A stretch of 64,000 bases of DNA from Nitrospira sp. Lineage in GTDB: Bacteria > Nitrospirota > Nitrospiria > Nitrospirales > Nitrospiraceae. The notes under the pieces were generated by a model that searched no databases, was not told the DNA's origin, and saw only the letters and a list, made by a program, of their open reading frames with translations. Shown one piece after another: positions 34,254 through 39,772 of this stretch. The stretch's first letter is position 1, and the number at the start of each line of letters is the position of its first letter. The position numbers were made by a program, and so were the translations under genes. The stretch lies in the NCBI GenBank assembly GCA_030123565.1, contig CP126122.1, forward strand, positions 3,052,800 to 3,116,799, given 5' to 3'.

Positions 34254-34426
34254 CGGTGAGAGATTAACGCATCTGAGAAGTCGAAGGCAACCGAACCGCT
34301 TGGAGGTCGATGGCCGATCGCATATCACTGCGCCATGGATGGCAATTTATCCGACGGTCCGCTAGACTATGCCCCTGCGCGGACTCTGTTCCTGTACGCC
34401 CCTTACAAGCTGAAAGGAGCCTCGGC

Positions 34427-34792
34427 ATGTTCCATCGCGACGCTCTTTGTCCTCGGGCCCTCACACGAAACACCCTGTTCGCATTGGTACTCGTCCTCGG
34501 ATGCCAGACGACCCTTACGGTCCCGATGGCCTCAGCCGCCGGTCCAGGAACCGAAGCCATTCAAGGTTTGGGCAGCTATCTCCTGACCCTGCCCTATGGC
34601 GGCATCAAAATGGCCGTGGCGGTGCTGGGTGCGGTCGTCGGAGGGCTGGGATTCGTATTCACGGGCGGCGACAAAGCGACCGCCGACAAGATCTGGGCCC
34701 CATCGCTGGGCGGCGAGTATGTCATCACGCCTGACCACCTTCGCGGCGAGAAGGATCTGCATTTCTTCGGCAAGAGTCCTGCCAAGGGATGA
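34427..34792 (+). CDS. Small exported or lipid-anchored protein
   Basis: This 121-residue protein begins at an ATG with AAAGGAG upstream. It has a signal sequence with 'LVLGC' (Cys about 26), a possible lipobox. A second hydrophobic, glycine-rich segment lies at about 59-80. The polar C-terminus carries 'GEYVITPDHLRGEKDLHF'. No domain is recognised. Probably a small envelope protein. Confidence 0.7.
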   Translation: MFHRDALCPRALTRNTLFALVLVLGCQTTLTVPMASAAGPGTEAIQGLGSYLLTLPYGGIKMAVAVLGAVVGGLGFVFTGGDKATADKIWAPSLGGEYVITPDHLRGEKDLHFFGKSPAKG

Positions 34793-35070: not shown

Positions 35071-35505
35071 ATGGGAGAATTCAAATCTGGCTTCTTCATG
35101 AGTGAGTCGAGCTGCAACGGTCGTGTGCTCGTCGTCGATGATGAACCGGACATTCGCAAAGTCGTCCGCATGACCTTGCAGAAGGCCGGGTACGAAGTGA
35201 TCGAGGCGGAAAACGGTGAAAAGGCCATTGAAGCCATCAATACCGGCGAAAACCGGTTGTTGCTGGACGTCCTCATCTGCGACATCCGCATGCCGAAAAT
35301 CAACGGCGTCGAAGCCATTGCCTACTTCCAACAGGAATGGCCGCGCGTGCCGATCATCGTCTTGACCGGCTTCCCGGACACCGACATGGCCACCTCGTTT
35401 TTGCGGAGCGGCGTCGTCGACTACCTGGTGAAACCGGTCGAGGGAGAAAAGCTGCGCACGGCGGTGGCCAGGGCCATGGAACAACGGGAACTGGCTCGGC
35501 TGTAG
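35071..35505 (+). CDS. Stand-alone response regulator receiver
   Basis: This 144-residue protein is a single receiver domain with a short N-terminal extension. The acidic pocket is 'VVDDEPD', the phospho-acceptor is Asp71 ('LICDIRMPK'), the switch Thr is in 'IVLTGFPD', and the Lys is in 'DYLVKPV'. There is no output domain. The ATG follows AAGGAGGGG. It is the first gene of a four-gene signalling cluster and may be phosphorylated by the kinases that follow. Confidence 0.92.
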   Translation: MGEFKSGFFMSESSCNGRVLVVDDEPDIRKVVRMTLQKAGYEVIEAENGEKAIEAINTGENRLLLDVLICDIRMPKINGVEAIAYFQQEWPRVPIIVLTGFPDTDMATSFLRSGVVDYLVKPVEGEKLRTAVARAMEQRELARL

Positions 35506-35658: not shown

Positions 35659-36708
35659 ATGAACAACTCTCCGACTAAAATCGCCATCGTCGGCGCCGGA
35701 AAGGGCGGGATCGCAGTTCTGGAACTCCTCCATCAGATCCCGGGCGTCGAAATCGTCGGCATTGCAGACAAGAATCCCGACGCCCCGGGCCTCAAGCGGG
35801 CGCGCGACCTGAACGTGCAAGTCGCCGAACAGGTTCAAGACCTCATCCGGAATCACGGCGTCACCCTCATCATGGATGTGACCGGTGACCCGGCGATGGG
35901 GCCGCTCATTCATGCTTCCAAGCGCCCCGGCTCCGAGGTCCTGAGCGGAGCCGCCACCAGACTCTTGTGGAACCTCGTCCAACACCAATCGAAATTGGAA
36001 GCCGAGTTGTTCCAGGCCGACAAACTGGCGGGGATCGGCTCCTTCGCCGCCGGCATCGCCCACGACATCAACAACCCGCTGCAGTTGATCCTCGGACTCG
36101 CCGAGAACCTGACGGATGAACAGGACCTCGACGCCGTACACGAACAGGCGCGCGACATCGTCGAAGCCGTGAAGCGCACCAGCGCGATCTGCCGCGACCT
36201 GACCCGTTACGCGAGGCGCAACGCCGCCGGCGATACCACGCCCGTCAACCTCAATATGAAAATGGACGAAGCGCTGAGAATCGCCCGCTATGCGGTCGCG
36301 CTTCAGGACATTACGGTCGTCAAACGGTATGCCGACCAGCCCACCGTGATCGGAAACCCCGACGAACTGCTGCACGTCTTCGTCAACCTGATCACGAACG
36401 CGATCCAAGCCATGAACAACCGCGGCACGTTGACGCTGCAAACCACCGTCGGGCCGGACGGAGAAGTCAGCGCCTCGGTCAGCGACACGGGATGCGGCAT
36501 TCCCAAGGAAGCGTTCTCGAAGATCTTCGAACCGCTGTACACGACGAAACCGCCCGGGAAGGGCACGGGATTGGGATTGTACAATGTGATGTCGGTGATC
36601 TCGAAGATGGAAGGTCACATTTGCGTCGAAAGCGACGTCGGCGTCGGCACGACCTTCCGGATCGAATTTTCACAAGTTCAGCCGACGATGTCAGGCGCAG
36701 CCCTATGA
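35659..36708 (+). CDS. Histidine kinase with N-terminal Rossmann-type domain
   Basis: This 349-residue soluble kinase begins with a nucleotide-binding-like fold. It has GAGKGG (12-17) after a beta strand 'KIAIVG', then 'VEIVGIADKN' with an acidic end of beta-2, and 'TLIMDVTGDP'. This fills about residues 5-105, as in small NAD(P)-dependent dehydrogenases. From about 110 the kinase core follows: H box 'AAGIAHDINNPLQ' with His135, N box 'NLITNAIQAM', 'DTGCGIP' and 'GKGTGLGL'. There is no membrane segment. The fusion suggests a sensor of NAD(P)(H) or a related ligand. Its TGA overlaps the ATG of the next kinase. Confidence 0.85.
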   Translation: MNNSPTKIAIVGAGKGGIAVLELLHQIPGVEIVGIADKNPDAPGLKRARDLNVQVAEQVQDLIRNHGVTLIMDVTGDPAMGPLIHASKRPGSEVLSGAATRLLWNLVQHQSKLEAELFQADKLAGIGSFAAGIAHDINNPLQLILGLAENLTDEQDLDAVHEQARDIVEAVKRTSAICRDLTRYARRNAAGDTTPVNLNMKMDEALRIARYAVALQDITVVKRYADQPTVIGNPDELLHVFVNLITNAIQAMNNRGTLTLQTTVGPDGEVSASVSDTGCGIPKEAFSKIFEPLYTTKPPGKGTGLGLYNVMSVISKMEGHICVESDVGVGTTFRIEFSQVQPTMSGAAL

Positions 36709-39185
36709 CGACCGCCTCGAGCCCCCTCTCAAAGGCCAACGGATGGGGACTGAAACGCAAGCTGATCGTCTCTATGCTGCTGGTCGGCGTGGTCCCTCTC
36801 CTGCTCGGCCTCGGCATGGCCTTTTTGCAAGGTTCGAAAGAAATCCAGGTCGTCAGCGGCGAAAGTTTCCAGGCATTGGCCACGGAGGCGGCCCGCAAGC
36901 TGGACCTGCTCGTGGCGGAAGAGGTGGCGCGAACCTCCCGCATTACGGTCCATCCGGACATCGTCCGTGAGCTGGAACACCGGCGCGACGCGCTGCAGAC
37001 CCCCGACAAAAGCCCCACGCACATCGCACTGGCCCGGCAGCGGGCAGGCTGGGAGGCGAAGGATCCCGCCGTGGTGAAAGCGCTCACCGAGAATTCCACC
37101 GCCCTCCTGTTGCAGGGCTTCTACGTCGGGGCGCACAGCGAGCCCGACCAGCTCCTGCCCCAGGTCGTCCGCGCCGCCACCAAGAAGCTCTTCATCACGG
37201 ATGTGCAGGGAAACCTCTTTGCGGCCCTCTCGACGAAACCCGACTTCGGCCATGCGAACAACGAGTGGTGGAAGGGGACCTACAACAAAGGGGTCGGCCA
37301 GCTCTTCATCGAAGACCTCCACTTCGATGACCAGGCCAATGCCTATGTGTTCAGCATTTCGCTTCCGATCATGGACAGCCTCCGTTATGAAGTGGTCGGC
37401 GTCCTCCATCGCGTGATCGATGCCAAGGAATTTTTCTCTCCCTCGACCCATCCCATTCGATTCGGCAAAACCGGCCATGTGATGCTGATCGACAGCCGGG
37501 GCATCGTCCTCAGTTGTCCCATCCTTCCTACCGGCGTTCGCCTCTCGGACCCGACGCTCATCCCCCAAGTGACCCTGCGCCAGCCAGGCTGGGTGACGGC
37601 CGACAGCGACGGGCACGGCGGCAGCGGCACGGCCATCATCGGGTTCGCCCCGCTTCCGGAGACCAGCCGCGCCACGAACGGTTCCCTGGAACTGGGCGCC
37701 TGGCATACCTTCGTCTGGCAGTCTTCCGACGAACTCTTCGCGCCGATCCGGCACCTCATGTTGTGGATGGTGATCCTTGCCCTGGTCGCGCTCGGGTTGC
37801 TCGCCACCCTGGGGTATCTCGCCGCCAGCCGAATCGTCACTCCGGTCCGCCGGCTGCAGGAAGCCGCGCGACTCATCGGACGCGGAGAGCTGCGCGAACC
37901 GATCCAGATCCGCACGGGGGATGAATTGGAAGAGCTGGCGGTCGAGTTCAACCGCATGCATGCCCAACTGGAAACCGCCTTTGCCGGGTTGAACACGCAG
38001 GTCGAAGAAAAAACGCAGGAAGTGCAATATCTCCAGAAATCCACCGATCAGGTCCTTGACGCCGTACCGACCCCGATCATCATGGTCGATCAGCAAAACC
38101 GGGTTCAATATATGAATCGTGCGTCACGGGAGGCCCTCGATACCAATGGAAGCGACTGGTCCGCGCGCTCGCTCTTCGACCTGCTGCCGATAGATCACGG
38201 CCACCGCGAGGCCCTGCAACGGGACCTGCGGCTGGTCGATCAGGGGGTTCCGAGAGACTCTCCCCTCTCCGATCCGGCCCTCGCTCCGAAAGAAGCGCGC
38301 GACCCGTTGGCCCCGGCCCTCGGCCATGCATCCTCTTCGAAGCGCCACGAACTGACGATCGGCAATCATGTCTATCACTACGAATGGTTCCCGCTGGAAA
38401 GCCGCAGCGGCGCGGGGAAGCGGTTCGGACTCGTCCTGCGCGATACCACCGATGAAAGCCGGTTGCAGGACCAGCTGATTCAAGCAGAGAAATCCGGCAG
38501 CCTCGACGTCCTGACCGCCGGCATCGGGCATGAACTCAACAACCCGCTCTTCGGCATTCTCGGCCTGGGCGAGGCGATTCAAGAAGAAGTCGATCTGGCC
38601 CGCGCGAAGAGTTATGCGCAGGATATCGTCGATCACGGCAGGAAGATGGCGGCGATCATCCGCGACTTCACCGGGATGGCGGCGCGTGAATCGAAAAACC
38701 AACGGGTGCCGGTGGATGTCACCGCCCAGTTGGAGCAAGCCCTGATGATCATCCAGACCTCGCATGATTGCCTGGGGGTCAATGTCCAGAAACATTATGT
38801 GACACTGCCCCCTGTGACGGCGCTCCCGGACCAACTTCGGCTGGTCTTCATCAACGTCCTCACCAATGCCATCCAGGCTATGGGAGGCCGGGGCGACCTG
38901 TGGTTGAGCACGGAGGAACAGGGCGGCGTGATCACCATCAAGATCCGGGACAACGGGCCGGGCATTCCCAAGCAACATCTCGGCAAAGTCTTCGACCCGT
39001 TCTTCACGACGAAGGGACAAGGAGAGGGTTCCGGCCTCGGCCTGACCGTGGCGCAACGGCTGATCAAGAAATTCGGCGGGGAAATCAGGCTGGAGAGTCC
39101 CGAAGGACAGGGCACGACCTGCATCATCACCCTGCCGACGGACAAGGCAGGGGTGCGGAAGGAGGAGTCATGCATTTCATCCTGA
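36705..39185 (+). CDS. Sensor histidine kinase (Cache-HAMP-PAS-HisKA-HATPase)
   Basis: This 826-residue membrane kinase starts with an ATG overlapping the upstream stop (ATGA). It has TM1 (about 20-40), a periplasmic Cache-like region (about 45-330), TM2 (about 350-370), HAMP, a PAS domain (about 445-590), the H box 'GIGHELNNPL' (His about 607), N box 'NVLTNAIQAM' and G boxes 'DNGPGIP' and 'GSGLGLT'. It has no receiver. It would use the single-domain receiver encoded upstream or another one. Confidence 0.92.
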   Translation: MTTASSPLSKANGWGLKRKLIVSMLLVGVVPLLLGLGMAFLQGSKEIQVVSGESFQALATEAARKLDLLVAEEVARTSRITVHPDIVRELEHRRDALQTPDKSPTHIALARQRAGWEAKDPAVVKALTENSTALLLQGFYVGAHSEPDQLLPQVVRAATKKLFITDVQGNLFAALSTKPDFGHANNEWWKGTYNKGVGQLFIEDLHFDDQANAYVFSISLPIMDSLRYEVVGVLHRVIDAKEFFSPSTHPIRFGKTGHVMLIDSRGIVLSCPILPTGVRLSDPTLIPQVTLRQPGWVTADSDGHGGSGTAIIGFAPLPETSRATNGSLELGAWHTFVWQSSDELFAPIRHLMLWMVILALVALGLLATLGYLAASRIVTPVRRLQEAARLIGRGELREPIQIRTGDELEELAVEFNRMHAQLETAFAGLNTQVEEKTQEVQYLQKSTDQVLDAVPTPIIMVDQQNRVQYMNRASREALDTNGSDWSARSLFDLLPIDHGHREALQRDLRLVDQGVPRDSPLSDPALAPKEARDPLAPALGHASSSKRHELTIGNHVYHYEWFPLESRSGAGKRFGLVLRDTTDESRLQDQLIQAEKSGSLDVLTAGIGHELNNPLFGILGLGEAIQEEVDLARAKSYAQDIVDHGRKMAAIIRDFTGMAARESKNQRVPVDVTAQLEQALMIIQTSHDCLGVNVQKHYVTLPPVTALPDQLRLVFINVLTNAIQAMGGRGDLWLSTEEQGGVITIKIRDNGPGIPKQHLGKVFDPFFTTKGQGEGSGLGLTVAQRLIKKFGGEIRLESPEGQGTTCIITLPTDKAGVRKEESCISS

Positions 39186-39772
39186 CAACGGTCCGAAGAG
39201 GGCCGCTGTGGTTGGCGCTGATCCTGGTCTGCGCCTCGACCTACCAACTGCAGGCAAAGGATGCCGCGCCGGTCGCGCCGCCCGCAGGGATTCCCCCGGA
39301 AAAAGTCGCGGACTACGTGCATGCCGTCCTGGATGCCGACCGTACGATCTATACCAACCAGGTCGTCAACCGCATGCAGGGCAAAGGCATCGTGTCCGCC
39401 GCGGAACATTGGGAACATGAAAACGCCTTGCCGCTTCCCGCACAATTCCTCCAGCAGTCGGGCAAACTGGTCGCCGAATCGGGACGAGGCATTCGTTATC
39501 GCCTCATCAGCCTCTGGCCGATCTATCAACGCAATGCCCCCGCCACCGATCTGGAGCGCCGCGCCTTGGAAAGTTTTGCCCAGACGCCCGACCGCCCCTT
39601 CACCGGCATCGTCACCAGCGGCCGCAAGCAATATTTTCAGGCCGTGTATTCGGACCGCGCCGTCTCGACCGCCTGCATCAAGTGTCACAACAGCCATCCC
39701 TTGAGCCCCAAGCGGGACTTCGCACTCAACGATGTCATGGGTGGGATGACGATCACCATCCCGCTGGACTGA
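39170..39772 (+). CDS. Exported DUF3365/Tll0287-like c-type heme protein
   Basis: This 200-residue protein has a signal peptide (about residues 1-28). Its DUF3365-like body carries 'DADRTIYTNQVVNRMQGKG' and 'LPLPAQFLQQ', and one heme motif 'CIKCH' near residue 169. Tll0287-type proteins are heme-containing PAS-like sensors. The ATG lies inside the upstream kinase gene after AGGAGG, so production is coupled. It may supply redox or ligand input to the two kinases in the periplasm. Confidence 0.88.
   Translation: MHFILTTVRRGPLWLALILVCASTYQLQAKDAAPVAPPAGIPPEKVADYVHAVLDADRTIYTNQVVNRMQGKGIVSAAEHWEHENALPLPAQFLQQSGKLVAESGRGIRYRLISLWPIYQRNAPATDLERRALESFAQTPDRPFTGIVTSGRKQYFQAVYSDRAVSTACIKCHNSHPLSPKRDFALNDVMGGMTITIPLD

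Follow-up and report, generated by a model that had tools for sequence, protein, structure and literature searches.

Residues 1-112 of a soluble histidine kinase of Nitrospira are predicted to form a Rossmann-fold domain that bears the marks of a mobile sensory input; its most likely ligand is NAD(H), the binding of which is still unproven. We consider it rather probable that this domain is a mobile cytoplasmic sensor that descends from a dehydrogenase's NAD-binding half and most likely responds to NAD(H), its ligand, its effect and its receiver (REC) partner being inferred; what our analysis documents is the fold, the conservation of the pocket, the fusion to multiple outputs, the input position, the continuous helix of the model and the conservation of the operon.

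The Kinase and Its Predicted Fold

The window considered here is the whole stretch of 64,000 nucleotides that was analyzed (bases 3052800-3116799 of a single 4.6-Mb contig), the relevant features of which are collected in table 1. In the kinase, Pfam places HisKA at residues 128-189 and HATPase_c at residues 232-338, and the H, N, and G boxes of histidine kinases are present, with H135, N247, D276, G278, and G304-G306 conserved in the alignment of homologs. HisKA directly follows the Rossmann domain, the C-terminal catalytic or substrate half of dehydrogenases being absent according to both Pfam and the full-length AF2 model, and Pfam finds no PAS, GAF, Cache, or HAMP domain in the protein. 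The first-pass annotation, made from the letters alone, had described a soluble kinase with a directly attached Rossmann-type sensor and without PAS, GAF, or membrane sensor, a description that the Pfam matches and the predicted fold bear out.

Table 1. Coordinates of the Kinase, Its Parts, the Genes of Its Operon, and the Paralogous Kinase (Window Numbering Unless a Locus Is Given)
Feature	Position	Strand	Evidence or remark
Stand-alone receiver (REC) protein, first operon gene, presumed partner	35071..35505	+	Pfam Response_reg 8.5e-30
Rossmann-fold soluble histidine kinase, 349 aa	35659..36708	+	ORF (ATG 35659, stop 36708); Pfam HisKA and HATPase_c; AF2 models
Rossmann input domain, aa 1-112	35659..35994	+	AF2 model; NAD-binding matches by Foldseek/VIA-align; family alignment
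beta-1 and GAGKGG glycine loop, aa 6-17	35674..35709	+	G12 and G14 conserved in non-redundant relatives (see text)
Asp37, acid ending beta-2, ribose-binding position of NAD-type folds	35767..35769	+	Asp or Glu in relatives (see text)
VTGD motif after beta-4, aa 74-77	35878..35889	+	T75 and G76 conserved (see text)
Continuous signaling helix, aa 97-153, from pocket edge to H box	35947..36117	+	Full-length AF2 model; Trp104 conserved (see text)
HisKA dimerization/phospho-acceptor domain	36040..36225	+	Pfam 7e-11; H135 (36061-36063) invariant in 22 homologs
HATPase_c catalytic domain	36352..36672	+	Pfam 2.5e-24
dCache-HAMP-PAS histidine kinase	36705..39185	+	Pfam; start overlaps stop of Rossmann kinase (ATGA)
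Tll0287-like exported c-type heme protein, CIKCH, last operon gene	39170..39772	+	PF11845 5e-20; overlaps end of preceding gene
Paralogous Rossmann-HisKA_3 kinase	L010:763-2076	-	Between nrdR and LuxR-type response regulator

The AF2 model of residues 1-125, built on an alignment of 34 sequences, has a mean pLDDT of 92.7 and a pTM of 0.82, and shows a five-strand dinucleotide-binding Rossmann fold with a long helix after it (strands at residues 6-11, 30-36, 70-73, and 93-95; helices at 15-24, 43-50, 59-63, 80-87, and 97-124). The structure prediction that had been suggested for this region thus recovers the proposed dehydrogenase-like fold of about 100 residues, with the GAGKGG loop (residues 12-17) coming after the strand 6-11 and Asp37 as the acidic end of beta-2. 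In the full-length AF2 model, which is a monomer, a single helix of 57 residues (97-153) holds H135, the last helix of the Rossmann domain being also the start of DHp helix 1; the direct junction to the H box claimed earlier is therefore reproduced, with the qualification that the linker helix between the domains is modeled with only moderate confidence (pLDDT 60-76).

As closest structural neighbors, Foldseek and VIA-align retrieved the NAD-binding domains of acetaldehyde dehydrogenase 1nvm (Z 12.4, rmsd 1.6, 94 residues aligned), of Gfo/Idh/MocA enzymes in NAD-bound form, of GenD2 with NAD (Z 12.4), of inositol dehydrogenases (Z about 11), and of the redox-sensing repressor Rex (7wb3, Z 9.9). 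A profile search of PDB sequences also returned acetaldehyde dehydrogenase (7.7e-6) and Rex (1.6e-4). Curated families recognize the domain only weakly. For residues 1-112 the Pfam matches remain below cut-off (DapB_N 8.9e-5, GFO_IDH_MocA 7e-4, CoA_binding 2e-3), the best of them, DapB_N, reaching 23.0 bits against a cut-off of 25.6, and the NCBIfam matches to acetaldehyde dehydrogenase (6e-6) and Rex (7e-5) are far below theirs (best 25.7 vs. 282). No sensor-domain family in Pfam or NCBIfam matches the N-terminal domain above cut-off, and most of its relatives lie at or below the cut-off of the general NAD-binding models of Pfam, which some exceed marginally. The Rossmann input domain is a family outside the curated catalogues.

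Conservation of the Putative Pocket

Conservation was evaluated on 118 domains sharing less than 70% identity with each other. Position 37 is Asp or Glu and position 48 is Ala in every one of the 118, G12 is found in 117 of 117 and G14 in 112 of 118, followed by A42 and G44 (109 each), T75 (106), G76 (99), and W104 (96). Eight of the ten most conserved columns belong to the four C-edge loops of the sheet, which comprise 24 of the 107 columns (p 7e-5). The loops had been fixed from the model before the columns were ranked, their exact bounds being our own choice. The earlier proposal would have failed if the fold lacked a nucleotide pocket or were conserved without the GxGxxG loop, and neither is the case, given that the dinucleotide-binding topology is present and that the glycine loop and the acid of beta-2 are precisely the conserved parts. 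Two of its elements need to be qualified. The first two glycines of GxGxxG are conserved as stated; at the third, position 17, 72 of the 118 domains have Gly and 38 have Cys, the latter belonging chiefly to the Desulfobacterota-type subfamily. Moreover, the suggested sensing of NAD(P)(H) should be narrowed, because the invariant acid at position 37 favors NAD(H) over NADP(H), nucleotide sensing itself remaining an inference.

The Cys at position 17 is seen, for instance, at loci L201, L204, L209, and L219 and in their relatives, often together with His at position 97, and thiol chemistry or a different ligand chemistry is possible in these variants. Judging from sequence alone, one ligand may not fit the whole family, in a third of which Cys replaces the third glycine and G97 is often His.

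Distribution and Fusion to Different Outputs

Searched with the domain profile, the genome of the window yields two members (E 1e-46 and 5e-42), the next match having an E value of 0.41; the domain is far beyond chance similarity. It occurs in about half of the Nitrospirota genomes sampled (109 of 198) and, at E 1e-8, in at least 85 of the 297 genomes from the phylum of a 'Deltaproteobacteria' assembly, a lower bound since the first-look candidates were only partly scored. Bacillota contribute one record, from Acetoanaerobium noterae (domain profile E 1.4e-22, MCPsignal 1.1e-19), in which the protein is a soluble Rossmann-MCP chemoreceptor (L213:2998-3780, + strand); this 2.6-Mb record is filed as a plasmid and is probably a chromosome. 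A search of plasmid records returned only the Acetoanaerobium record and a weak Rhodococcus match, and viral contigs gave no match to the Acetoanaerobium domain.

The search for the same fusion in other genomes, another follow-up suggested by the first-pass annotation, found it in many of them, as well as in other kinds of signaling proteins. Orthologs of the window kinase retain the Rossmann domain throughout the family, and among the 260 ORFs of our output survey, examples of which were checked with Pfam, the domain lies N-terminal to HisKA and HisKA_3 kinases, to PAS/GAF relays with kinases, to REC-REC-GGDEF hybrid kinases, to GAF-GGDEF, GGDEF-EAL, and GGDEF-HD proteins, and to sigma54 AAA+ proteins with HTH_8; in one group of ORFs a LuxR-type HTH comes before the domain, and stand-alone proteins of 150-186 residues are also found. 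The tree of the 118 non-redundant domains, whose resolution is weak owing to the shortness of the domain, requires the output class to have changed at least 14 times. Our main argument for considering the domain a sensory input is that this shuffling of outputs resembles the pattern of PAS, GAF, and Cache domains.

The Operon and the Paralogous Kinase

The REC protein and the dCache kinase neighbor the Rossmann kinase in nearly all of the orthologs sampled, and the Tll0287 gene is also adjacent wherever the ortholog locus is long enough, with the more distant locus L078 lacking a Tll0287 match. Within the genus, REC is 96-100% identical vs. 69-96% for the Rossmann domain. The Tll0287-like protein has no fused output; domains of this kind have been described as NO-binding c-heme Cache domains (PMC12889525). 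Upstream of the operon (34310-34792, + strand) lies a gene for a 160-residue protein without Pfam match, 64-71% identical within the genus.

The second copy of the domain in the genome, with 37% identity, is carried by a HisKA_3 (NarL-class) kinase adjoining nrdR and a LuxR-type response regulator. Kinase and regulator stay together throughout Nitrospirota and in several 'Deltaproteobacteria' assemblies, nrdR being present mainly in Nitrospirota. We weighed the upstream nrdR as a functional link to the paralog, but its position may instead reflect plain glyA-nrdR synteny.

Proposed Mechanism and Alternative Explanations

How might such a domain control the kinase? In Rossmann folds, the nicotinamide end of the dinucleotide sits at the sheet edge, by the loop after beta-5. 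We propose that the domain would read the NADH/NAD+ state in the manner of Rex, with the ligand lying over the glycine loop and the sheet ends of beta-4 (VTGD) and beta-5 (SGAA..LLW). Since the junction between beta-5 and the helix is at the pocket, a ligand would move the DHp helix: Binding or redox change could shift or rotate the 57-residue helix that runs from the end of beta-5 into DHp helix 1, and this movement would set the DHp geometry and hence the balance of kinase and phosphatase activity at H135. Phosphoryl transfer would probably be to the upstream REC, which would also serve the operon's dCache kinase, so that a cytosolic redox signal might be merged with a periplasmic one perceived by dCache and the c-heme protein. 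The direction of the effect, REC as the partner and the output of the pathway are all inferred.

The ligand itself has been neither observed nor predicted, and NAD(H) is an inference to which we give moderate preference. CoA, ATP, FAD, and SAM are also bound by dinucleotide-type Rossmann folds, and the domain might be a sensor for another nucleotide or metabolite such as CoA or acyl-CoA, ATP/ADP, ADP-ribose, or a sugar-like substrate together with a dinucleotide. The weak CoA_binding matches, the Cys/His variation in one subfamily and the very commonness of the fold among nucleotide binders speak for this possibility, which we nevertheless deem unlikely, because the best and most numerous neighbors are NAD-dependent enzymes and Rex, and because the acid at the end of beta-2 never varies in our alignment. 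Such an acid is characteristic of folds that bind the NAD ribose, and not of the CoA loop of succinyl-CoA synthetase; presumably, the filing of Rex under CoA_binding in Pfam would account for the weak match to that family.

The missing catalytic half, the existence of stand-alone versions and the capacity of Rossmann-fold proteins to act as scaffolds would also be compatible with a degenerate fold that has no small-molecule ligand and serves only in dimerization or docking, a partner protein or oligomerization being then the signal. Yet the conserved residues lie in the pocket loops rather than on the surface helices, and the glycine loop has been retained over many fusions and three phyla, which renders this explanation quite improbable. 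That the domain is a functionless relic, a dehydrogenase fragment accidentally joined to a kinase, could be entertained as long as only the single case of the first-pass annotation was in sight; it is hardly credible in the face of the genome counts given above for Nitrospirota and the other phylum, the functional signaling partners, the conserved pocket and the retention of the operon across the family, a conservation that contradicts it.

Relation to Known Systems

Among known NADH sensors, the one with the most similar sensing domain is Rex, which reads NADH/NAD+ (PMC8063818). Like that of Rex, the domain would be a stand-alone Rossmann domain acting as sensor instead of enzyme, and the two can be aligned in strand order, glycine loop and beta-2 acid. 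However, in Rex the N-terminus is formed by a winged-helix domain that binds DNA, and a helix is domain-swapped, whereas the Rossmann domain of the window kinase is itself N-terminal and belongs to a family driving kinase, cyclase, AAA+, and chemotaxis domains; acetaldehyde dehydrogenase and Gfo/Idh/MocA proteins, moreover, match it at least as well as Rex does. Indeed, the NAD halves of these enzymes provide the closest fold and the best profile matches, but they are followed by a catalytic half where our family has signaling domains. KidO of Caulobacter is an NADH-binding oxidoreductase-like protein feeding a two-component pathway (PMC7083601), differing in being a separate protein of oxidoreductase type and not a fused input domain. 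With HisKA-type soluble histidine kinases the window kinase has the H, N, and G boxes in common, its sensor belonging to no curated family. Our searches of the open-access literature for histidine kinases, cyclases, and chemoreceptors of Rossmann or NAD-binding type returned no description of the domain. Hence, the fold and Rossmann sensing as in Rex are already known; what appears new is the promiscuous fused input module, which we rate as a new sensory-domain family on a known fold.

The winged-helix domain of Rex (PF06971) was not found in the genome of the window and is present in only 2 of 118 Nitrospirota genomes. Because Rex is thus nearly absent from this phylum, it is plausible, and not shown, that the domain substitutes for it there. 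Whether we are dealing with an undefined NAD(H)-sensing family that feeds every main bacterial output in Nitrospirota, a Desulfobacterota-type phylum and Bacillota, and replaces the absent Rex, is in our estimate evenly balanced. The outputs reached include two kinase classes, synthesis and breakdown of c-di-GMP, sigma54 activation and chemotaxis. Redox sensing in bacteria is mostly ascribed to flavin or heme PAS/GAF domains, thiols, Fe-S clusters, and Rex; if our proposal is true, a Rossmann input of NAD type fused directly to kinases, cyclases, and chemoreceptors would connect the NADH/NAD+ ratio in a simple and general way with phosphorelay, second messenger and behavior, and the domain may be a widespread direct gauge of the redox state of the cell. 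Two signaling gene sets of the important nitrite oxidizers Nitrospira, highly conserved yet uncharacterized, would also gain a tentative function. The domain is small and soluble, and the proposal is readily testable.

Variant Architectures

Some proteins depart from the common arrangement. Tandem Rossmann pairs precede PAS-PAS-kinase modules at loci L197, L200, L203, L206, L208, L211, L220, L230, and L248, and tandem copies form two separate groups on the tree. Proteins of 770-797 residues with the order Rossmann-GAF-GAF (L175-L180, from several 'Deltaproteobacteria' assemblies) have a diverged glycine loop, GANKEG or GANKET. At two loci of one genus within the same order (L061:4851-5657 and L072:4851-5753, both on the - strand), the Rossmann domain lies inside a receiver domain, the alpha-4 region of which it replaces. 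No Rossmann kinase was found near these insertions; the host receiver is related to the REC of the operon, the flanking genes are unlike between the two loci, and ORFs of similar length occur in further genomes of that genus.
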